Of a stretch of DNA of 64,000 bases, positions 44,385 through 58,227 are shown piece after piece. Numbering within the stretch: position 1 is the stretch's first letter; the number at the start of each line of letters is the position of its first letter. This DNA is from Rhodospirillum sp. (GTDB taxonomy: Bacteria; Pseudomonadota; Alphaproteobacteria; Dongiales; Dongiaceae), in contig PNKY01000015.1 in the NCBI GenBank assembly GCA_013822765.1, positions 50,099 through 114,098 on the forward strand, given 5' to 3'. Position numbers and translations under genes: made by a program. The notes beneath the pieces are model-generated. The model was given only the letters and a program-made list of their open reading frames with translations, was not told the origin of the DNA and did not search any database.

Positions 44385-45566
44385 CTACGCCGCCAGCGTG
44401 CCTTCGAGCCCGTTGACGAACATCACGCGCAGCTCCTTGGCGCCGACCTGGATCGGGTTGCCGCCGGCGCTGGGATCTGCGGCCGCCATCTCGGCCACCC
44501 TATCGACCTGCTTGTCGTCGACGCCGATGTCCTTCAGCGTGTGCGGGATGCCGATCTCCTTGCGCAGGGCGAGGATCCAGTCCAGCAGCGACTTGAAGGA
44601 CGGGTTGGGTAGGTTGAGATACCGCGCCAGACGAGTCAGCTTCTCGTCGATGGCGCTGCGGTTGTACTCCAGCACATAGGGCATCACGACCGCGTTGGTG
44701 AGGCCGTGGTGCGTGTTGTAGAGCGCGCCGAGCGGGTGGCTGATGGCGTGCATGCCGCCGAGGCCCTTCTGGAACGCGGTGGCGCCCATGCTGGCCGCCG
44801 CCATCATGTTGGAGCGCGCGACCAGGTTCTTGCCGTCCTTCACCGCCGCCGGCAGCGCGTCCTTGATCAGGCGCATGCCTTCGATCGCGATGCCATCCGC
44901 CAGCGGATGGAAGCCCGGCGCGCAATAGGCCTCGAGGCAATGCGACAGCGCATCCATGCCCGTGGCCGCGGTGATGTGCGGCGGCAGGCCGACGGTCAGC
45001 TCCGGATCGTCGATCACGATCGAGGGCAGCATCTTCGGATGGAAGATGATCTTCTTCACATGGTTGTCCTGGTCGGTGATGACCGAGGCGCGGCCGACTT
45101 CCGAGCCGGTGCCCGACGTGGTCGGTACCGCGATGATGGTGGCGATGCCGTTGGGATCGACTCTGGTCCACCAGTCGCCGATGTCCTCGTAGTCCCAGAT
45201 CGGACGCTTCTGCCCGATCATCAGCGCGACCGCCTTGGCGGCGTCGAGCGCCGAGCCGCCACCGAACGCAATGACGCCGTCATGGCCACCGGCCTTGTAG
45301 GCGGCGATGCCGTCCTCGACATTCTTGCCGGTCGGGTTGCCCTGCACGTTGCTGAAGAGTCCGGTCGGCACGCCGGCTTCGTTGTTGCGCGCCACGGCGT
45401 CCTTGATCATCGGCAGGTTGGCGAGGCCGGGATCGGTGATCAGCAGCGGGCGCTTCATGCCGAGCGCCTTGCAATGATCGGCGAGTTCCTTAATGCGGCC
45501 GCAGCCGAACTTGACCGAGGTCGGGTAATTCCAATTGCCGCGAAGCGCGGCGGCGTCGGTGGTCAT
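44385..45566 (-). CDS. iron-containing alcohol dehydrogenase
   Basis: GVIAFGGGSALDAAKAVALM; GTGSEVGRASVITDQ; GGMHAISHPLGALYNTHHGLTNAVVMP. Confidence 0.95.
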   Translation of the reverse strand: MTTDAAALRGNWNYPTSVKFGCGRIKELADHCKALGMKRPLLITDPGLANLPMIKDAVARNNEAGVPTGLFSNVQGNPTGKNVEDGIAAYKAGGHDGVIAFGGGSALDAAKAVALMIGQKRPIWDYEDIGDWWTRVDPNGIATIIAVPTTSGTGSEVGRASVITDQDNHVKKIIFHPKMLPSIVIDDPELTVGLPPHITAATGMDALSHCLEAYCAPGFHPLADGIAIEGMRLIKDALPAAVKDGKNLVARSNMMAAASMGATAFQKGLGGMHAISHPLGALYNTHHGLTNAVVMPYVLEYNRSAIDEKLTRLARYLNLPNPSFKSLLDWILALRKEIGIPHTLKDIGVDDKQVDRVAEMAAADPSAGGNPIQVGAKELRVMFVNGLEGTLAA

Positions 45567-46312: not shown

Positions 46313-47740
46313 CTAGCGCCAGGCCTTGCTGCGCTCGATCGCCGTGGAAAAGCGCGCGTGCAGGTCGGCGGCAAGCGGTGCGACGGGCGCGATCTCGACC
46401 TTCGGCGGCGGGGATGGCGGCAGGGTATCAGGCTTGGCAAAGCCCGCGCCGATCATCGCCAGCTGCGCGGCGCCGAGGCCGGTCAGCTCGGCGCTCGAGG
46501 GCACGCGCACGCGCTTGTTCATCGCGTCGGCCAGGAAACGCGTGAAGTAGCGGTTGCGGGTCATTCCGCCATCGACCGACAGCACGGGCGCGAGCGGCGA
46601 GAGCTTGTCGATCGCAGCCATCACCTTGTGCGCCAGCAGCGCCACGCCCTCCAGCACGGCTTGCATCAGGTCGGCCCTGGTGGTTTCGAGCCCCATGCCG
46701 AGCCACAGGCCGGCGGCGCGGCGATCCCAGTATGGGCAGGAGAGGCCGCTCAGCGCCGGCACGAACACGAGGCCGCGCGCGATCGCGCTCTCGGCCGTGA
46801 AGTCGTCGATCTCCTGGTAGTCGGAAAACAGGCCGAGGCTGCGCGCCCAGTTGACGGCGGAGGCGGCGTTGTAGATGCCGCCTTGCAAGGCGTACGCGAC
46901 CGGCGCGTCACCCAGCTGCCATGCGACGGTCGCTTCGAGGCCGCTCTCGCTGTCGCGCGGCACGGTGCTGCCCGCGACGGCGAGCGCGAACGCGCCGGTG
47001 CCGAAGGTGATCTTGGCATCGCCTTTGCGCCGGCAACCATGGCCGAACAAAGCGGCTTGTTGATCGACCAGGCTCGCCGTCACCGGGATGCCGCGCGCAT
47101 CCGCGAACGATCCTGCGGTCGGACGAATCTCCGGCAGGCATTCGAGCGGCACGCCAAACAGGTCAGCGAGGCGCTGGTCCCACTGCAGCGTCTCGAGATT
47201 CATCAGGCTGGTGCGCGAGGCGGTGGTGACATCGGTCGCGAACCGGCCGGTCAGGCGGTCGAGGAAAAAGGCATCACTGGTGCCGAGACGCAGGCGCCCG
47301 GCTTTGCGCAACGCCGTCGCTTCCGGCACGTTGTCGAGCAGCCAGCGCAGCTTGGCGGCCGAGAAGTAGGGATCGAGCGGAAGACCGGTGAGCTTGAAGG
47401 TCAGTTCCTCCGCGCCGTCGGCCTTGAGCCGCTCGGTCACATCGGCCGTGCGCGCATCCTGCCACACGATGGCGTTGTGGATCGGGCGCTTGGTGTCGGC
47501 ATCCCACGCGACAACGGTCTCGCCCTGGTTGGCGATGCCGATGGCGGAGGCATCGCCCGCCTGCTCGAGCGCACTCTCGACATGGCGCGTCAGCTCTTCA
47601 GGATCGTGCTCGACCCAGCCTTGCTGCGGGTAGATCTGGCGATGCTCGAAGCCGGCGACGGTCTCGAACGTGCCGTCGTCGCGCAGCCGGTGCGCCTTGG
47701 TGCCAGTAGTGCCCTGGTCGATGGCGATGACGGTGGTCAT
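46313..47740 (-). CDS. glpK: glycerol kinase / FGGY-family carbohydrate kinase
   Basis: MTTVIAIDQGTTGTKAHRL; IANQGETVVAWDADTKRPIHNAIVWQDAR; DGGMTRNRYFTRFLADAMNKRV. Confidence 0.88.
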   Translation of the reverse strand: MTTVIAIDQGTTGTKAHRLRDDGTFETVAGFEHRQIYPQQGWVEHDPEELTRHVESALEQAGDASAIGIANQGETVVAWDADTKRPIHNAIVWQDARTADVTERLKADGAEELTFKLTGLPLDPYFSAAKLRWLLDNVPEATALRKAGRLRLGTSDAFFLDRLTGRFATDVTTASRTSLMNLETLQWDQRLADLFGVPLECLPEIRPTAGSFADARGIPVTASLVDQQAALFGHGCRRKGDAKITFGTGAFALAVAGSTVPRDSESGLEATVAWQLGDAPVAYALQGGIYNAASAVNWARSLGLFSDYQEIDDFTAESAIARGLVFVPALSGLSCPYWDRRAAGLWLGMGLETTRADLMQAVLEGVALLAHKVMAAIDKLSPLAPVLSVDGGMTRNRYFTRFLADAMNKRVRVPSSAELTGLGAAQLAMIGAGFAKPDTLPPSPPPKVEIAPVAPLAADLHARFSTAIERSKAWR

Positions 47741-47747
47741 GAGGGGA

Positions 47748-47860
47748 ATCCCCCTCCCCCAAACTGGGGGAGGGCAGGGGTGGGGGAAGCGAGCGAAGTT
47801 TCCGTCCATCTGAGGCGCGGCTTCCCCCCTAACCCTCCCCCGTGTCGGGGGAGGGGATTG
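47748..47860. repeat. intergenic inverted repeat (ccctcccccaaactgggggagggcaggggtgggggaagc ... gcttcccccctaaccctcccccgtgtcgggggagggg)
   Basis: Two GC-rich hairpins arranged as a large inverted repeat inside the FAD-oxidoreductase/glycerol kinase gene series. Confidence 0.85.
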
Positions 47861-47887
47861 GAGACGAAGTGACGCGACGCGTCGGCT

Positions 47888-49108
47888 CTATGCGGCATCG
47901 AGTTCCACCGACACTTGCCGGCACGTTCTCAGGTCGCGCGCGGGCAGCTTCCAGGCGATGCGGCGCTCCGGCAGGGCGGAGATGCGGCTCGACCATACCA
48001 CGCTGCCATCGACCACCACTGACAGCCGGCCGCGCACTTCATGGGTGACGCGCGCCTTGAAGAGCAGCGGGTGATCGGTCAGCGCATCACGATAGATGCG
48101 CTGCGGATAGACGTAGGCGAGCGGGCCCTGCAGCGTCACGCGTGCATCGGGCTGGCGCGCCGGCAGGCGGTTCTCCAGCCGGGCGATCACCATCTCGGCG
48201 ACCGCTTTGCCTTCGCGCCAACATTGGCCTGCCGTCTCGATGCCGCGCAGCACGTTGCCGGCCGCGAAATAGTGGTGATCGGAGCAGCGGAAATAATCGT
48301 CGATGACAGGACCGCTGGTGCCGGGATCAATCTCGATATGAGAGGGCGCGATTAGGGCCGTCTCTGGCCGGAAGCGCCCCGTCAGGATGACGCCGTCGCA
48401 CTCCATCAGCTCCGGACCGAAGCCGCGATCGATCTCGATCCCGGTCACCCGGTCGCGGCCGATGATACTGAGGAGGCGCGTGTTGGTGAGGACCGGCACG
48501 CCGAAGCCGAGCCGCGCGATCCACTTGCCGGGCGCGCGCGCGGTGATGCGCGCGTTCTCCTCGATGATCGCCAGTGGCTTCAAGCCTGCGTGGCGCAGCG
48601 TCAGCAAGGTGGAGAAGGCGACCAGCTCGCTGCCGATGACGACCGGCCGCTCGAACGGGCACTTGCCGTGGAGATACACGAACTGCTGGAGCGCGCCGGT
48701 GTTCATCACGCCGAATGGACGGCTGCCGGAGATCAGGCGGGCGCTGCGCGGCGTCTCGCGCGCACCGAAGGCAAGGACGATGGCCTTGGCTTGGAAATCC
48801 TCGGCGCCGTTAGGCCCGGTCGCGCGCACCAGGCCGCCCGGCTCGAGCTTCAAGGCGGACATGCGCAGCTTGAGGTCGGCGCCGGAGGCTTTGTCGGCCA
48901 AGCGCTTGGCATAGTCTGGTCCGCTATAGACCTTGCCGAACTCGCGCAGGCCGAAGCCGAGATGGCCGCAGTGGCGCGGAATGCCGCCTAGCGCGCTCTC
49001 GCGCTCCAGCAACACAATGTTGTGGATGCCGAGCCCGCGCAGGGCGCGCGCGCACGACAGGCCCGCCGGCCCGCCGCCCAGGATCAGCACGTCGCTGTTG
49101 CTGGTCAT
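47888..49108 (-). CDS. NAD(P)/FAD-dependent oxidoreductase (pyridine nucleotide-disulfide type)
   Basis: DVLILGGGPAGLSCARALRGLGIHNIVLLERESALGGIPRHCGHLGFG; ATGA overlap with the upstream dehydrogenase. Confidence 0.88.
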   Translation of the reverse strand: MTSNSDVLILGGGPAGLSCARALRGLGIHNIVLLERESALGGIPRHCGHLGFGLREFGKVYSGPDYAKRLADKASGADLKLRMSALKLEPGGLVRATGPNGAEDFQAKAIVLAFGARETPRSARLISGSRPFGVMNTGALQQFVYLHGKCPFERPVVIGSELVAFSTLLTLRHAGLKPLAIIEENARITARAPGKWIARLGFGVPVLTNTRLLSIIGRDRVTGIEIDRGFGPELMECDGVILTGRFRPETALIAPSHIEIDPGTSGPVIDDYFRCSDHHYFAAGNVLRGIETAGQCWREGKAVAEMVIARLENRLPARQPDARVTLQGPLAYVYPQRIYRDALTDHPLLFKARVTHEVRGRLSVVVDGSVVWSSRISALPERRIAWKLPARDLRTCRQVSVELDAA

Positions 49109-50466
49109 GGCTGCAAACGTCCTTCCGCCATCGCCAGTACCTGCGCGCTGCAATAAAAGCCCTGGCAGCGGCCCATCATGCAGCGCGTGCGCCGCTTCAG
49201 GCCGCCGAGGTCACCGGCTGGCAGCGGGCCTTCGAGTGCGGCCGCGATCTCGCCGCGCGTCACCAGCTCGCAATGGCAGACGATGTCGCCGCCGGCCTCG
49301 GTCATGTATTGGCGCGGCCGTTCTTCGGCGAGGTTGGGGACCGGGGTCCAGATCGGCTCCGCCTCGCGCACGTCGCCGAAGGTCTCGGCGAAACCGCGGC
49401 CGATCATCTGGGCGATGCCGAGCGCGGCGGTCAGGCCGGTCGAGCGGATGCCGGCCGCGGTGATCCAGCGGCGCTCGCGGTTGACGGCGATCTGATAGTC
49501 CTTGAACTGGGTCGCGGGCCGGAGGCCGGCATAGATCGCGTTCACCGAATGATGCGCGAGCTCGGGGATCATCTCGACGCCCTTGGCGATCAGCTGCTCC
49601 AGCATCGCGTGGTCGACCTCGGCGCGGTCGCGATCCGTCTGGTCCTCCGCCGTCGGGCCGACCAGCAGATTGCCGAAGGCGGTGCGGCAGGCGACGACGC
49701 CCTTGGTGCGCTCGGTCGGCACCGGCAGGATGATGGCGTGCAGCAGTTTGGACGCCGGCTTGTCGAACACGACGAACTGGCCCTTGCGCGGCGTGATGGC
49801 GAAGGCGGGCGGTTGGTTGATGGCTTCGACCAGGTCGCCGTGATTGCCAGCGGCGTTGATGACGACGCCCGCCACGACGTTGCCGAGCGTCGTCTGCAGC
49901 GTCCAGCGCACGCCGTCGAATGCGCCGCCGGTGACGCGGCAGCGCCGCAGGACCTTGCCGCCATGCGCCAAGCCTTGGTGCGCGTAGGCGAGCGGCGCGG
50001 ACCAGGGATCGATGATGTGCTCGCCCGGCACGTGGACTGCGCCGAGGCCGCGCTCGCTGAGGGACGGCTCACGCTTGCGCAGTTCGTCGCGGTCGATCTG
50101 CACGACGTCGCCGACGCCGTTCCGATGCGCCTTCGCGACGATCGCTGGCAACTTGGCGAGCTGCTCTTCGTCCCACGCCACCACCAGCGCGCCACTTTCG
50201 ATCAGCGGCAGATTGAGCTTGTCTTTGATCGCGAGGTATTCGCGGTAGCCGGACTGGATGCAACGAACCTCGATGCTGTCCTCCGGCGCGTCGAAGCCGG
50301 TGTGCAGCAGCGCGCTGTTGCCCTTGCTCGCGCCGTCGAGGATGTCCGACGCGGCCTCGAGCATGATCGGTTCGAGGCCGGCCATGGCCAGACGCCGGAA
50401 GACGGCGCAGCCGACCACCCCGGCGCCGATGATGACCGCCCTGCTGTGTGCGATAGATTCCCTCAC
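49105..50466 (-). CDS. glycerol-3-phosphate dehydrogenase-like FAD oxidoreductase (DAO fold) with C-terminal BFD-like [2Fe-2S] domain
   Basis: RAVIIGAGVVGCAVFRRLAMAGLEPIMLEAASDILDGASKGNSALLHTGFDA; C-terminal DIVCHCELVTRGEI...RRTRCMMGRCQGFYC. Confidence 0.88.
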   Translation of the reverse strand: MRESIAHSRAVIIGAGVVGCAVFRRLAMAGLEPIMLEAASDILDGASKGNSALLHTGFDAPEDSIEVRCIQSGYREYLAIKDKLNLPLIESGALVVAWDEEQLAKLPAIVAKAHRNGVGDVVQIDRDELRKREPSLSERGLGAVHVPGEHIIDPWSAPLAYAHQGLAHGGKVLRRCRVTGGAFDGVRWTLQTTLGNVVAGVVINAAGNHGDLVEAINQPPAFAITPRKGQFVVFDKPASKLLHAIILPVPTERTKGVVACRTAFGNLLVGPTAEDQTDRDRAEVDHAMLEQLIAKGVEMIPELAHHSVNAIYAGLRPATQFKDYQIAVNRERRWITAAGIRSTGLTAALGIAQMIGRGFAETFGDVREAEPIWTPVPNLAEERPRQYMTEAGGDIVCHCELVTRGEIAAALEGPLPAGDLGGLKRRTRCMMGRCQGFYCSAQVLAMAEGRLQP

Positions 50467-50518: not shown

Positions 50519-51907
50519 TCAGATCTTTCGCAGGTGGAACGACTTCGGCCTGGTCAGCATCTCGTAGCCGACCCGGCTCAAAGTGGCGCCGCGGCCGGAG
50601 TTCTTGACGCCGACCCAGGCGAGGGCCGGGTCGAGGTAGTCACAGCGATTCATGTAAATGGTGCCGGTTTCGAGCCGGTCGCCGATCTTTTCCGCCTCGT
50701 CGGTGTCCGAGGTCCACAGCGCGCAGGTGAGGCCGTATTTGCTGTCGTTCATGAGGCGGACCGCCTCGTCGTCGGTCTTCACCTTCATGATGCCGATGAC
50801 CGGGCCGAAGCTCTCTTCCGACATCACGCTCATGGCATGATCCACGTTCACAAGCACTTGCGGTGCCAAGTAGGGCGTGCCGGGCTTGTCGGCGGCGAAG
50901 CTCTTGGGATCGACCAGCGCCTTGGCGCCGGCCTTCACCGCGTCGGCGATCTGGCCGCGCACGAACTCGGCGGCCGAGGTGCGCACCATCGGGCCCAGGT
51001 TGGTGCCGGCGTCGAGTGGATTGCCCAGCTTGTATTTTTTTGTGAGATCCACAAAGCCGTCCACAAACTTGTCGAACAGCTTTTCGTGCACGTAGATGCG
51101 CTCGATGGCGCAGCAGCACTGACCGGAATTGAACATGGCGCCGTCGACCAGGTTCTCGACCGCGTGGTCGAGATTGGCATCGGCGCGCACATAGGCCGGG
51201 TCCTTGCCGCCCAGCTCCAGGCCGAGGCCCATGAACTTGCCGAGCGCGGCCTGCTGCACGGCGTGGCCGCCGGCGACCGAGCCGGTGAAGTTGCAATAGG
51301 CGACTTCCGGCGCAGCGATCACCTTGGCGGTATCGTCGTGGGTGAGGACGAGATGCTGGAACAGCCCCTTGGGGAGGCCGGCGGCGTCGAACGCCTGCTG
51401 GAACCCTTCGGCGCACAGCGGGGTCTGGGCGGAGTGCTTGAGCACGACCGCGTTGCCGGCCATCAGCGCCGGGATCACGCCGTTGACGGAGGTGAGATAG
51501 GGGTAATTCCACGGCGCCACGATGAAGACGACGCCGAGCGGCTCGCGCCGGACGAAGCGCACGAAGCCCGGCTTGTCCTTCGCCTCGAGGTCGGCGAGCG
51601 CCTCCGCGGCGATCTGGATCATGTAGCGGGCGCGCTCTTCGAAGCCACGCATCTCGCCCGGGCTCTGAGCGATCGGGCGGCCCATCTGGCGCGTGATCTG
51701 CTCGGCGTGCTGGTCCCTGTGGGTGAGGAAGATGTCCACCGCCTTGGTCAGGATCTTCGCGCGCTCGGCTATGGACGTGAACTTCCACGTGCGCTGCGCC
51801 TCGGCCGCCGCCTTCAAGGTCGCGGCGATCTCGGATGGCGTGGCGTAGGGTCGCTCGACATAGACGCTGTTGTCGATCGGCGTGATGGTCTTCTGTGTGG
51901 CTGCCAT
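50519..51907 (-). CDS. aldehyde dehydrogenase family protein
   Basis: APWNYPYLTSVNGVIPALMAGNAVVLKHS; LELGGKDPAYVRADANL; FNSGQCCCAIERIYV. Confidence 0.95.
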   Translation of the reverse strand: MAATQKTITPIDNSVYVERPYATPSEIAATLKAAAEAQRTWKFTSIAERAKILTKAVDIFLTHRDQHAEQITRQMGRPIAQSPGEMRGFEERARYMIQIAAEALADLEAKDKPGFVRFVRREPLGVVFIVAPWNYPYLTSVNGVIPALMAGNAVVLKHSAQTPLCAEGFQQAFDAAGLPKGLFQHLVLTHDDTAKVIAAPEVAYCNFTGSVAGGHAVQQAALGKFMGLGLELGGKDPAYVRADANLDHAVENLVDGAMFNSGQCCCAIERIYVHEKLFDKFVDGFVDLTKKYKLGNPLDAGTNLGPMVRTSAAEFVRGQIADAVKAGAKALVDPKSFAADKPGTPYLAPQVLVNVDHAMSVMSEESFGPVIGIMKVKTDDEAVRLMNDSKYGLTCALWTSDTDEAEKIGDRLETGTIYMNRCDYLDPALAWVGVKNSGRGATLSRVGYEMLTRPKSFHLRKI

Positions 51908-51921
51908 GATGATGCTGTCCG

Positions 51922-53295
51922 TCAGATGATCTCGAAGTAACGCGCCAGTTCCCAATCGGTGATGTGCTTGCGGAACTCTCGCTCTTCCCATTCGCGGGTC
52001 GCGGCCCAATGCTCGACGAAAGGCTCACCGAACAGGTCGGCCGCCGCCTTCGACTTGCGCAGGCGCTGCGCCGCTTCCCACAGCGTCCGCGGCAGGTCGA
52101 GCTTTGCCGGATGCTTCATGTCATAGGAATTGCCGACGATCGCCGGCATCGGCTCGATCTTGTTCTCGATGCCGTAGAGGCCGGAGCCGATCGCGACTGC
52201 CATCGCGAGATACGGGTTCATGTCGGCGGCGGCGATGCGGTATTCGACGCGCTGCGATTTCTCGGAGCCTGGAATGACGCGCAGCGCACAGGTGCGGTTC
52301 TCGACGCCCCAGGTCGCGTTGGTCGGCGCCCAGAAGCCGGGGATCAGGCGCGAATAGGAGTTGACCGTGCAGCTCACCATGCCAAGCAGCTCCGGCATCA
52401 GCGCTTGCTGGCCGCCGACGAACCAGCGCTGCTTGTCGCTCATGGTGTGCGGCTTCTTGGCGTCGTAGAACACCGACTTGCCGTCCTTGCCCTTGAGGCT
52501 GACGTGGATGTGGCCGCTCTGGCCAGGCCAGTTGTTAGACCACTTGGCCATGAAGGTCGCCATCAGGCCGCGGCGCTGCGCCAGCACTTTCATGAAGGTC
52601 TTGAACAGGGCCGCGCGGTCGGCGCTCTCGAGCGCCTTGTTGAAGGCGAGGGCCGCCTCGAGAACTCCCGGGCCGGTCTCGGTGTGCAAGCCCTCGATCG
52701 GCATGCGCATCTTTTCGCAGGTGTCGAGGATTTCGTGATAGAGCTCGGCCCAGACCGAGCCGCGTATCATCGAATAGCCGAAATAGCCGGGCGTCATCGG
52801 CGTCAGGTTGCGGAAGCCTTTTTCGCGGACACTCTCCGGCGTTTCGTCGAACATGAAGAACTCGTACTCGGCCGAGGAATAGGCCTCATAGCCCATCTTC
52901 GCGGCCCTATCGAGCACGCGGCGCAGGACGCCGCGGGGACAGATCTCCTCTGCCTTGTTTACGAACTCGCACAGGAAGAACAGCGTATTGTCTTCGAACG
53001 GAATCTCGCGGCAGGTCTCCGGAATCACCCGCACCCAGGCGTCGGGATAGGCGGTGTGCCAGCCGGTGTATTTGACGTTGTCGAACAGCTGGTCGTTGCT
53101 GTCCCAACCCAGCACCACGTCGCAGAAGCCGAAGCCGCCTTCGAGCGCGGAGAAGAACTTCGTCTTCGACATGTATTTGCCGCGCAGGATGGCGTCGCCG
53201 TCGAACACGCCGACCTTGATGTGGGTGATTCCGCGCTCCTCGACGATCTTCTTGGCTTGAGCAACGCTCTTCACCTGCTCCGGCTTCAAAGGCAT
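51922..53295 (-). CDS. glutamine synthetase-like protein (GlnT/PuuA-type subfamily)
   Basis: AYSSAEYEFFMFDETPESV; SGHIHVSLKGKDGKSVF; NATWGVENRTCALRVIPGSEKSQRVEYRIAAADMNPYLAMA. Confidence 0.93.
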   Translation of the reverse strand: MPLKPEQVKSVAQAKKIVEERGITHIKVGVFDGDAILRGKYMSKTKFFSALEGGFGFCDVVLGWDSNDQLFDNVKYTGWHTAYPDAWVRVIPETCREIPFEDNTLFFLCEFVNKAEEICPRGVLRRVLDRAAKMGYEAYSSAEYEFFMFDETPESVREKGFRNLTPMTPGYFGYSMIRGSVWAELYHEILDTCEKMRMPIEGLHTETGPGVLEAALAFNKALESADRAALFKTFMKVLAQRRGLMATFMAKWSNNWPGQSGHIHVSLKGKDGKSVFYDAKKPHTMSDKQRWFVGGQQALMPELLGMVSCTVNSYSRLIPGFWAPTNATWGVENRTCALRVIPGSEKSQRVEYRIAAADMNPYLAMAVAIGSGLYGIENKIEPMPAIVGNSYDMKHPAKLDLPRTLWEAAQRLRKSKAAADLFGEPFVEHWAATREWEEREFRKHITDWELARYFEII

Positions 53296-53346: not shown

Positions 53347-54441
53347 CTAGGCGGCGTGGCGACGCGCACCGGATGGGCGTTTGGAAGCCTGCTTGATCTT
53401 GGACACATCCCCCATGAGGCCGTCGCCGGGTTGGTCCCCGGGCGTCGTGAAGTGACGCTGACGGTCTTCGCTTGGCCTTACTCCATGGGCGTCCATATAG
53501 CATTTGGAGAAATGCGAAAGCGAGTCGAAACCCACCGCTTCCGCCACCCGCGCCAGGCCCAGCATGGTGCCCTGGACCAGATCGCGTGCGCGCGCCAGGC
53601 GCAGGCGCTGGTAGTATCCGCGCGGGCTGACGCCGAGGTGCCGGTGGAACAGCCGCTCCAGGTGCCGCAGGTGGATGCCGGCCTCGGCCGCGATCTGCGG
53701 CAACGGAACAGGGTCCGAGACCGTATTGCGCATCAGGGCGACGGCGCGCTTGATTGGCGGGGCGACCTGGGTCTCGATCGATTGCTGCTGGTCGGCGGCC
53801 GGCTCGATCTTCTTGCGCACGCGCTGGCGGGCGAGGCGCATCATCACCTGCTGCGCCACAGCAGAGCCCTGCACGGCCTCGACATTGGCGAGCGCGAAGT
53901 CCGAGGTCGCGCAACCGCCACGGCAACCGAAGAAATCGTCCTTGCGCCAGAACATCTCCTTGCGCTGCGCCGCGCCGCGGGCGCGCTCCTTCGGCATCGC
54001 CGAGATGCGTCCCAAGACCGAGCAGCCGCCGCCGATACCGCCCAGGCGCTGGATCGAAGCGGGATGCGCGCTGAGCCAGGCGGCGAGGCCGGCGCAATCG
54101 TCGCCCGAGGCATCGGCGTCGCTGAACACGATCACGGTGGAGAGCGGTCGCAACTCGGTCACGTCGCCGTCGGCGGCGACCGGAATGCCGGCCGAACTCA
54201 CGATCGAGCGGCCGGAGATGGCGACGATCTCCCAGCTGAAGGCGCGGCGCTGCGCCAGCTCGTTGGCGGAGGTGAAGACATCGAGCAAGCGGGCGAGGTC
54301 GCCGAGGGCGAAGCCATTCATCAGCACCAAGCTGAGCGCGGCCCGGCGCTCGGTATCGAGCGCGAAGGGCGAAGCAGGGGCGCGCAACGTTTCCGCCACG
54401 GTGGGCGGATGCCATGCGCGATGATCTTCGGTTTCTGCCAT
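53347..54441 (-). CDS. GlxA-family (AraC-type HTH) transcriptional regulator, GbdR-like
   Basis: Divergent GATase1-like N-terminus; ...GCRGGCATSDFALANVEAVQGSAVAQQVM...; AraC HTH LPQIAAEAGIHLRHLERLFHRHLGVSPRGYYQRLRLARARDLV. Confidence 0.88.
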   Translation of the reverse strand: MAETEDHRAWHPPTVAETLRAPASPFALDTERRAALSLVLMNGFALGDLARLLDVFTSANELAQRRAFSWEIVAISGRSIVSSAGIPVAADGDVTELRPLSTVIVFSDADASGDDCAGLAAWLSAHPASIQRLGGIGGGCSVLGRISAMPKERARGAAQRKEMFWRKDDFFGCRGGCATSDFALANVEAVQGSAVAQQVMMRLARQRVRKKIEPAADQQQSIETQVAPPIKRAVALMRNTVSDPVPLPQIAAEAGIHLRHLERLFHRHLGVSPRGYYQRLRLARARDLVQGTMLGLARVAEAVGFDSLSHFSKCYMDAHGVRPSEDRQRHFTTPGDQPGDGLMGDVSKIKQASKRPSGARRHAA

Positions 54442-54502
54442 CAGCCTACCCCCGGTGATAACTGGCCCGCCCACGACACCGCAAGCGGCCCAGGCGGTCC
54501 CC

Positions 54503-54712
54503 CCTCTGTCGATTGGACCTGAGAGATTCACCGGCAGGTGGCGCGTGGCCAAGCCGGTTTACTCCTTCGGTGAGGTGCTGCGGCGAGCTGTCGCGGCGCC
54601 TGCTTTCCAGAGTCTTCGGCCGTGATCGGTCCTTTTGCCTGAGAGGTTCCGGGGGCGGTTGCTCCTTCGGCGCCGCAATACCTTAGCAGGTATTGCGATC
54701 TCTCCCGACAAC
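54503..54712 (-). ncRNA. tandem (two-aptamer) glycine riboswitch
   Basis: Minus strand reads gggagagatcgc...gcgccgaaggagcaa...ggaacctctcaggcaaaaggaccgatc, then a linker, then caccgaaggagtaaa...ggtgaatctctcaggtccaatcgacagagggg: two copies of the glycine aptamer core motifs. Confidence 0.93.
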
Positions 54713-54771
54713 GGCGAACAAGGTTCAAGTCTGGGTCGCCGCCTGAGGGTCGTCAAGCCGCAAAAGGGCGA

Positions 54772-54804
54772 AAGAAAAGGGCCGCTCCGAAGAGCGGCCC
54801 CAGG
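54772..54804 (-). terminator. rho-independent terminator downstream of APC permease gene 54826-56364
   Basis: Minus strand: ggggccgctc-ttcg-gagcggccc followed by ttttcttt. Confidence 0.85.
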
Positions 54805-54825: not shown

Positions 54826-56364
54826 TTATTCTGCAGGGCTGCCCAGCGCGGCTTCCTCGCGGGCAATCTCGGCCTGGCGGGCCCTTACCGCCTCTTCGGT
54901 CAGCGGCGGGCCAGGGAAGCGCTTGCGCTCGAACGCAAACCAGACCACGACCAGCACCACAACCGCGACGGCAAGGAACTGGCCGACGAGCTGATAGGGC
55001 GGTTGGAAGCCAACGAACGCCAGGATCAATGCTCCGATCACCGCGAGCGCCGCGACCGGCTTGGACCAGACGCCGAGGTCGAACGGCCCCTTCTTGTTCC
55101 AGCTCTTGCCCTCCGCAAGGATGCCGGCGCCGATCGGCATGGCGTAGGACACGTACAGGAACACGGCGCAGCCCGATGCCAGGATGATGTACGCACGTGC
55201 GTCAAACCCGGCGAACATGCCAAGGATGAAGCAGGCCAGCGCACCGACCCAGATCGCCGCGCCGGGCGTACGATACTTCGGGCTGATCTTGCGCAATGGC
55301 CGCGGCAATCCGCCGTCGCGGGCGAACGCGAAGATCATGCGCGACAGCGAGGTGAGGCCGGCCAGCGCGCACAGGTAGTTCGACACCACGATGCCGATGG
55401 AGACGAAGCCCTTGAGCCAACCCGGCATGCCGCTGGCATCAAGCACGTAGTAGAACACCGACCAGCCCTTGCCGGCGCCTTCGGTCGTGTCCGGCATCGC
55501 CAGCAGCACGGCAACGATCAGGAGCCAGCCGAACAGGGCCGACCAGAACACCGAGGTTACCATGCCACGCGGCACGCTACGCTGCGCGTCGCGTGTCTCT
55601 TCCGAGGTGTGTGCCGACGCATCGAAGCCGGTGATGGTGTAGCACACATGCAGCAGGCCCAGGATGAACGCGAAGAACAGGCTTTCCGTGCGCGGCCAGC
55701 TTTCGGCGCCGGCGGGTCCGGTGTTGTTGGTGAAGGTGTAGATGCGCGAGAAATCCAGCTCGACCGGCGAGCCCCAGACCAGTCCCACGATCAGGATGAT
55801 CGAGACCAGGAAGATCAGGTAGCCGGAGAAGTCCGTCAGGATCGTCGTGGCCCGAATGCCGACATAGTTCAGGAAGGCCTGCGTCACGAGGATGATCGCA
55901 ACGGCAATGACAAGATGCGTGCCGGTGAAGCTCTCCGGCGCCATGCCGAACAGGCCGACGAGGACCAGATCCTTCAACAGCAGGTAGACGCCGTAGTCGA
56001 CCGACGCGACCACGAACAGCAGCCCAAGCAGGTTGAGCCATGCCGTGCCCCAGCCCCAGCCTTTGCCACCCAGGAGCGAGCTCCAGTGATAGAGGCCGCC
56101 GGCGGTCGGATAGGCCGAAGCGATCTGCCCCATGGCACATGCCACGACCAGCGTGAAGATCGAACCGACGATCCAGCCGATGCCGATCGAGCCGCCGCCG
56201 GCTGCGCCCATCGCCACCGTGTAGGCGCCGATGCCGCCGGCCAGGATGCAGATGATGGAAAACGAAATCGCGAAGTTCTGGAATCCGCCCATGCGGCGCG
56301 CAAGCTCCTGCGCATATCCCATGGAGTGGAGGACTTTGACGTCCTCATGATGTTGGTCTGCCAT
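54826..56364 (-). CDS. APC-superfamily amino acid permease
   Basis: ELARRMGGFQNFAISFSIICILAGGIGAYTVAMGAAGGGSIGIGWIVG, multiple TM segments. Confidence 0.93.
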   Translation of the reverse strand: MADQHHEDVKVLHSMGYAQELARRMGGFQNFAISFSIICILAGGIGAYTVAMGAAGGGSIGIGWIVGSIFTLVVACAMGQIASAYPTAGGLYHWSSLLGGKGWGWGTAWLNLLGLLFVVASVDYGVYLLLKDLVLVGLFGMAPESFTGTHLVIAVAIILVTQAFLNYVGIRATTILTDFSGYLIFLVSIILIVGLVWGSPVELDFSRIYTFTNNTGPAGAESWPRTESLFFAFILGLLHVCYTITGFDASAHTSEETRDAQRSVPRGMVTSVFWSALFGWLLIVAVLLAMPDTTEGAGKGWSVFYYVLDASGMPGWLKGFVSIGIVVSNYLCALAGLTSLSRMIFAFARDGGLPRPLRKISPKYRTPGAAIWVGALACFILGMFAGFDARAYIILASGCAVFLYVSYAMPIGAGILAEGKSWNKKGPFDLGVWSKPVAALAVIGALILAFVGFQPPYQLVGQFLAVAVVVLVVVWFAFERKRFPGPPLTEEAVRARQAEIAREEAALGSPAE

Positions 56365-56694: not shown

Positions 56695-58227
56695 TTAAGC
56701 GCTGGCCTTGGTCATCACCGCTTTCTGCCGTTCCTTGGTCGCGAACTCCTCTTCCGGCGAGTAGACCAGCTTGTGCCGGCCGATCACCGCGAAATAGACG
56801 ATGCAGATCGCATACCAGGCCGCCGCGAAGTAGACGCCATTGCGGTAGACCGGATCCTGCAGCTGCATGAACAACGTGACTGCCGAGATGACCATGACGA
56901 TGTAGCCGCCGGCCTCGCCCAGGGGACTGACATACGGCCGTGGGATATGAGGCAGCCTCTTGCGCAAGACCACGAAGGACAGGCCCTGCATGAAGTAAGA
57001 GATCATCGCGCCGAACACCGCCATGTTGAGCAATGTGCCACCGATGATCGCGCCGCTGTCCTCGCGCACGCGGTAGATCACGATCATCACCACGAACCCG
57101 ACGACCGCACCGATGAGCAGCGCCTTGTGCGGCACCTGGTGCTTGCCGTGGGTGACCGACAGCCCGCGCGGGAAGTAGCCGGCGCGCGACAGCGAGTAAA
57201 CCTGGCGGCCCATCGCATAGATGATGGTGTGGAAGCTGGCGATCAGCCCGACCAGGGCGCAGATCGCGAGGAACTCCGCCAAGCCCGGAATGGTGACCCT
57301 GAATCCATCCAGCAGCGGCTCGGCCGAGCCGCCGAGATAGAAGGCGCCATGGGCGGTACCGTCCGCGCTCTGGACTCCGATCCCGGAATTCAGGAACGTG
57401 ATCAAGGTGGCGGAAATGGCCAGCGTCAGGAAGCCGAGCAACAGGCCCTTCGGCATGTCCTTCTTCGGATCCTGCGACTCCTCCGCTGCCAGCGGCAGCT
57501 GCTCGATGGCGAGGAACAGCCACACTGCGAAGGGCAGTGCGGCGAGCACGCCGCCCCAGCCGAGCGGCATGAAGGGGCCGTTGCCGTCCGGCAGCTCGAC
57601 CGTTGCCCCGGTCGCCGGATCGACCCCGATGTTCAGAGCCCAGCGATTGAAGTCGAAGTGGGGGATCGCGCTGATCCAGTAGATCGCCAGCACCGCCAAG
57701 GCCAGCAGCGTGACGATGACGCTGACCTTGAAGCTGAGCTCGACGCCGAGGAGGTTGAGGCCGAGGAAGATCACATAGCCGACGATCCACCAGACCCATT
57801 GATACTCGGCAGTGCTCGGGAAGATTCCCGACATGTAGGAACCGATGAAGAACACGATCACCGCCGGCGTAATGACGTATTCGATGTTCTCCGCAACGCC
57901 GGTCAGGTAGCCGCCCCAAGGACCCATGGCGCTCCGCGCGAACGAATAGGCGGCACCGGTATGCGGCAGAGCCGGCGACATCTCCGCCAGGCAATAGCAG
58001 AGGCAGAGATACATGATGCCGATGACGATGGCGGCGATCAGAAAGCCGCCAAACCCGCCAACGCCGAGGCCGAAGTTCCATCCGGAATAGTGGCCCGAGA
58101 TGACGGCGCCAACGCCGAGGGCCCACAAGGAAAACACGCCTGCATATTTGCGGAGCGTGCGTTGCGCAAAATATTCGGCGCCGACTTTCTCGTATTCGAC
58201 GCCGCCAGTCCCGGCTTCGTGTTCCAT
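56695..58227 (-). CDS. APC-superfamily permease (ethanolamine/amino acid permease-like)
   Basis: GVFSLWALGVGAVISGHYSGWNFGLGVGGFGGFLIAAIVIGIMYLCLCYCLAEMSPALPHTGAAYSFARSAMGPWGGYLTG. Confidence 0.93.
   Translation of the reverse strand: MEHEAGTGGVEYEKVGAEYFAQRTLRKYAGVFSLWALGVGAVISGHYSGWNFGLGVGGFGGFLIAAIVIGIMYLCLCYCLAEMSPALPHTGAAYSFARSAMGPWGGYLTGVAENIEYVITPAVIVFFIGSYMSGIFPSTAEYQWVWWIVGYVIFLGLNLLGVELSFKVSVIVTLLALAVLAIYWISAIPHFDFNRWALNIGVDPATGATVELPDGNGPFMPLGWGGVLAALPFAVWLFLAIEQLPLAAEESQDPKKDMPKGLLLGFLTLAISATLITFLNSGIGVQSADGTAHGAFYLGGSAEPLLDGFRVTIPGLAEFLAICALVGLIASFHTIIYAMGRQVYSLSRAGYFPRGLSVTHGKHQVPHKALLIGAVVGFVVMIVIYRVREDSGAIIGGTLLNMAVFGAMISYFMQGLSFVVLRKRLPHIPRPYVSPLGEAGGYIVMVISAVTLFMQLQDPVYRNGVYFAAAWYAICIVYFAVIGRHKLVYSPEEEFATKERQKAVMTKASA

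Follow-up and report, generated by a model that had tools for sequence, protein, structure and literature searches.

The window, as we call the whole 64-kb stretch of DNA analysed here, carries on its minus strand a leader with two glycine aptamers followed by a run of metabolic genes. Read in the direction of transcription, the region begins with an ethanolamine-permease-like APC transporter (56695..58227), which reaches 352 bits against TIGR00908 and so falls short of that model's cut-off of 381.75, and an APC-family amino-acid permease (54826..56364) whose intrinsic terminator, a 10-bp stem with a T tract, lies at 54778..54801. Next come a promoter-like element, TTGACG-N17-CAGACT (54728..54756), glycine aptamer 1 (54617..54717), glycine aptamer 2 (54504..54612), a GC-rich hairpin devoid of a U tract that may act as the expression platform (54454..54503), and a GGGGG (54449..54453) that is the putative Shine-Dalgarno sequence of the first gene and is kept as GGGGG(A) in three congeners. 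That gene encodes a GlxA/GbdR-like AraC-family regulator of 364 residues (53347..54441). It is followed by genes for a glutamine-synthetase-like gamma-glutamyl-amine ligase of 457 residues (51922..53295), an aldehyde dehydrogenase that is a candidate gamma-glutamylaminoacetaldehyde dehydrogenase (50519..51907, the ATG at 51907 being inferred from the open reading frame), a glycerol-3-phosphate-oxidase-like FAD-dependent oxidoreductase with DAO and BFD [2Fe-2S] domains (49105..50466), a pyridine-nucleotide-disulphide oxidoreductase (47888..49153), a glycerol-kinase-like FGGY kinase (46313..47809) and an Fe-containing alcohol dehydrogenase (Fe-ADH), a candidate gamma-glutamylethanolamide dehydrogenase (44385..45566).

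Both aptamers were matched by cmscan to the Rfam glycine riboswitch family RF00504, aptamer 1 with 64.4 bits (E = 4.5e-11) and aptamer 2 with 38.6 bits (E = 2.8e-4), against a gathering score of 32; Rfam has no other match within the window. The preliminary description, which had placed two consecutive aptamers on this strand about 60 nt before the start codon of the regulator, is borne out by the covariance model, which returned two aptamers and not a single degenerate one, and by the measured gap of 62 nt to the ATG at 54441. The lower score of aptamer 2 is mainly due to long loop insertions, its core motifs being intact. Matches above the gathering score occur in the leaders of relatives as well, and in an alignment of ten related leaders the cores of the tandem are invariant, while seven predicted pairs, mainly in the P2/P3 helices, keep pairing through two-sided compensatory changes. 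The tandem thus combines conserved cores with covarying helices, and this pattern argues for a riboswitch function that has been maintained. One could suppose instead that the tandem arose by duplication of a gcvT-type leader and has lost, or is losing, its function here; the loss of the riboswitch from two sister-genus genomes and the second promoter-like site between riboswitch and ligase in that genus would fit such decay. Yet the core has stayed invariant in ten genomes and the helices have been compensated even though overall identity between regulator-linked leaders of different species is only 68-79%, which makes decay very improbable. The tandem is a genuine glycine riboswitch of conserved and clade-specific placement, which presumably binds glycine in vivo.

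Glycine riboswitches normally precede glycine-breakdown genes. The same genome possesses a second tandem glycine riboswitch, on another contig and before gcvT, which shows that the lineage carries ordinary glycine riboswitches too. That leader has the two-aptamer arrangement of the window tandem and shares with it the second-aptamer CTCTGGAAAGC and 3' GACAGAGGGGG signatures. In glycine-cleavage contexts, as described in a survey (PMC6944388), aptamer 1 is better conserved than aptamer 2 and the riboswitches are typically ON switches; in the window, too, aptamer 1 scores above aptamer 2. The difference lies downstream, where a GlxA-type regulator and a gamma-glutamyl-amine operon stand in place of gcv or transporter genes. 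In keeping with the earlier reading, tblastn located no gcvT, gcvH or gcvP in the window. In a riboswitch tree, with low support and no root, the operon leaders lie apart from the gcvT leaders, and it is possible that the operon riboswitch derives from a gcvT leader by duplication.

Just upstream of the riboswitch lie the terminator of the permease gene and, about 11 nt from aptamer 1, the promoter-like element. A TTGAC -35 and a CASACT (or near variant) -10 are kept in sequence and position in all ten related leaders. It is on this conservation that we base the assignment, since the -10 is poor and the element is too weak to appear in the list of a consensus promoter scan. A scan for terminator-like sites on the minus strand between 53200 and 54900 returned only the one at 54801-54778 and none between aptamer 2 and the ATG, in agreement with the earlier claim that no poly-U terminator separates the aptamers from the start codon. 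Translational control of the regulator start by the riboswitch is plausible. Across 24 leaders, gcvT yardsticks included, the presence or absence of the P1 helix of aptamer 2 made no consistent difference to Shine-Dalgarno accessibility. The start codon became at least slightly more accessible in each of the five regulator leaders and in most of the gcvT leaders, an effect too weak for use. ON and OFF could not be told apart by folding, which was equally unable to discriminate on the gcvT leaders. The more likely sign is that of an ON switch, in which glycine would raise expression, as suggested by the stronger aptamer 1 and by analogy with gcvT leaders.

Leaders of the sister genus carry a hairpin and a conserved CAACCCGACGTCGGGGAG 3' of aptamer 2, and a second promoter-like element, TTGCCG-N17-TAAATT, between riboswitch and ligase. 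In L009, L010, L012, L014 and L016, the stretch that separates aptamer 2 from the start of the ligase gene has a variable hairpin, followed by a conserved CAACCCGACGTCGG(G/A)GAG and then by this second element; the conserved sequence is similar to the Shine-Dalgarno context of gcvT, GTCGGAGG, but is not followed by a start codon.

Domain models describe the regulator as an HTH_18/AraC protein of GlxA layout. Its best NCBIfam model is that of GbdR (NF052371); the score is 144 bits and the cut-off 480, and by this measure it is only a distant relative of GbdR. With the GbdR, SouR and CdhR regulators it shares the GlxA-type AraC layout and this distant similarity; it differs from them in standing far below the GbdR cut-off and in heading a different operon. 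Of the GlxA/GbdR-like regulator first described behind the riboswitch, what survives is the GlxA-type AraC protein with no more than a distant kinship to GbdR. Orthologs were found in Dongia deserti and one metagenome-assembled genome (MAG), both at about 90% identity; another MAG has one at 79%, and a further genus of the family has them at 38-41%; among the 385 genomes of the class searched, no further ortholog rose above the paralog background. The five regulators form a clade of their own in the tree (support 100/99), apart from paralogs, and in all five genomes, which represent two genera, the tandem riboswitch lies immediately upstream of the regulator gene.

What, then, might the operon do? 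Among PDB chains the ligase scores best against 11zs (239 bits) and 5dm3 (199 bits), and it is clearly diverged from both; 5dm3, the closest chain of the ligase's own type, is described in its entry as L-glutamine synthetase and is the Chromohalobacter enzyme. We know of no assayed member of the clade to which the window ligase belongs. Homologs of the ligase occur in 66 of the 385 alphaproteobacterial genomes (E ≤ 1e-100), and across the class the neighbourhood (ethanolamine-type permease)-ligase-ALDH-Fe-ADH-GATase recurs. Annotated plasmid relatives have the order ligase-ALDH-Fe-ADH-GATase in Legionella and RpiR-ligase-ALDH-GATase in Burkholderia. A glutamine-synthetase-like ligase clustered with an aldehyde dehydrogenase and an alcohol dehydrogenase, here of the Fe-containing type, is also the gene set of the ethanolamine gamma-glutamylation systems (GlnA4 of Streptomyces, PMC6529630; MED193_10026-10056 of Phaeobacter, PMC10132767; and Chromohalobacter). 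The last step of that pathway yields glycine and glutamate (PMC6529630; PMC10132767). Relatives add an amidohydrolase and a permease, and excerpts of the same two papers mention no riboswitch. This genome has no homolog of the class-I amidotransferase that accompanies other ligases; it does contain N-formylglutamate-amidohydrolase homologs, unlinked to the operon. Taking the neighbouring genes together with the riboswitch itself, the operon probably serves the degradation of ethanolamine via gamma-glutamylglycine. Betaine, sarcosine or carnitine catabolism, which had been proposed as the controlled pathway, was dropped, as the regulator scores far too low for GbdR and the operon genes point to gamma-glutamylated ethanolamine instead; the more general expectation of a pathway ending in glycine is upheld by the ethanolamine route that we infer.

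The cluster contains glycerol-kinase-like and glycerol-3-phosphate-oxidase-like genes for which the ethanolamine route has no need, and these count against it. They would agree better with an operon for another amine, such as an amino alcohol, or a glycerophospholipid headgroup together with glycerol, glycine acting as a general nitrogen or one-carbon signal. The divergence of the ligase from its PDB relatives points the same way, as does the Fe-ADH, whose top model is 4-hydroxybutyrate dehydrogenase with a score below the cut-off. Against this stand the logic of alcohol dehydrogenase, aldehyde dehydrogenase and hydrolase, the ethanolamine-permease-like neighbours that recur across the class, and the fit of a glycine sensor to a glycine product, and we regard another amine as quite unlikely. 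The FAD oxidoreductase, pyridine-nucleotide oxidoreductase and glycerol-kinase-like genes (46313-50466 of the window) are inserted between the aldehyde dehydrogenase and Fe-ADH genes in this clade and absent from the ligase cluster of the other class members examined. Glycerol released from glycerophosphoethanolamine is one possible reason for the presence of such glycerol-type genes.

Within one clade of the Dongia-like family, 10 of the 12 genomes show riboswitch and operon linked. Dongia deserti, two MAG relatives and another genus have preserved the tandem in front of the regulator, whereas five sister-genus genomes (G008, G012, G013, G015 and G016) lack the regulator and have the tandem immediately before the ligase. 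Two of the seven sister-genus genomes (G011 and G014) have the ligase without the riboswitch, and other members of the family (G004, G006 and G010) have a ligase with no riboswitch adjacent; a search for a hidden riboswitch near the ligase of G011, G014 and G006 found none at E ≤ 1. In 62 other ligase-bearing alphaproteobacterial genomes (G011 included) the riboswitches found lie elsewhere, the closest being about 33 kb away in G371, in a search that may have missed a few owing to its fast filter and to fragmented contigs. In the ligase tree all linked genomes fall into a single clade (98/98), whose first split has genomes with the regulator on either side. Most simply, riboswitch and regulator would have been gained together once, after which the sister genus lost the regulator and the riboswitch disappeared twice; the regulator may instead have been gained more than once.

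These data also bear on the target of the switch. If the riboswitch controlled only translation of the regulator, which would then act on the operon and elsewhere, one would expect the regulator to come first, as it does in genera g1 and g7 (in the window 62 nt past aptamer 2), and the trees favour riboswitch-regulator-ligase as the ancestral order. However, the gap between regulator and ligase is only 50 nt and contains no promoter-like site evident by eye, so the two probably share one transcript, and the five sister-genus genomes devoid of the regulator keep the riboswitch upstream of the ligase; the regulator is hence not the sole or essential target, and control of the regulator alone seems unlikely. 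By gene order, the controlled unit is the regulator-plus-enzyme operon, for which glycine control is predicted. The original idea that the end product is sensed to tune synthesis of the regulator thus holds in so far as the riboswitch heads a regulator-first transcript, and needs to be widened to the whole operon.

On balance we think it fairly probable that the tandem riboswitch, with its own promoter, forms the leader of the regulator-ligase-ALDH operon and couples glycine to ethanolamine catabolism. Transcription from this promoter would give a single unit with the tandem as its 5' leader, comprising the GlxA-type regulator, the gamma-glutamyl-ethanolamide ligase, the aldehyde dehydrogenase and probably further genes. 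Ligase, Fe-ADH, aldehyde dehydrogenase and a hydrolase would convert ethanolamine through gamma-glutamylethanolamide, gamma-glutamylacetaldehyde and gamma-glutamylglycine to glycine and glutamate. The glycine produced would be read by the riboswitch, which, acting on translation or on transcript elongation, would adjust expression of regulator and operon and, given an ON sign, raise it together with the glycine cleavage system. More tentatively, at somewhat less than even chances, the arrangement may be a two-tier circuit, in which a glycine-sensing tandem sets both the pathway's own transcription factor, in its presumed role, and the enzymes, and which arose once in the Dongia-like lineage before the regulator was lost in the sister genus, leaving riboswitch and enzymes there. 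Such a circuit would bring the catabolism of ethanolamine, a phospholipid headgroup, into the glycine regulon alongside glycine cleavage.

A comparable arrangement is EutX/Rli55, in which a riboswitch likewise tunes ethanolamine catabolism via a transcription regulator, but there the ligand is AdoCbl, a B12 riboswitch acts through a small RNA that sequesters EutV, and the pathway is eutBC (PMC5821096). Surveys of glycine riboswitches list, in the excerpts considered, glycine cleavage, other glycine and serine metabolism, and transporters as targets (PMC3766115; PMC6944388), and no report of a glycine riboswitch in front of a transcription-factor gene or of a gamma-glutamyl-amine operon was found in the literature searched. 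The RNA class is known, and its genomic context is new to that literature. The riboswitch also provides independent evidence on the product of the operon: a glycine sensor before this ligase clade suggests a glycine-yielding pathway and makes the substrate of the enzyme directly testable.

Several other riboswitches were met in the course of this work. In a different alphaproteobacterial family, G056 and G182 have a second tandem glycine riboswitch (L018:5333-5515, plus strand; L102:2336-2518, minus strand) before an L-serine-dehydratase-like gene (motif GIGPSSSHTVGPMRA); control of sdaA by a glycine riboswitch is recorded for beta-proteobacteria and Mycobacterium (PMC3766115). Downstream of the tandem glycine riboswitch of G308 (L104:900-1095), about 1.3 kb of the same strand is free of coding-like ORFs. 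Finally, G011 carries a SAM-alpha riboswitch (L056:994-1068, 60.9 bits) several kb from its ligase gene.
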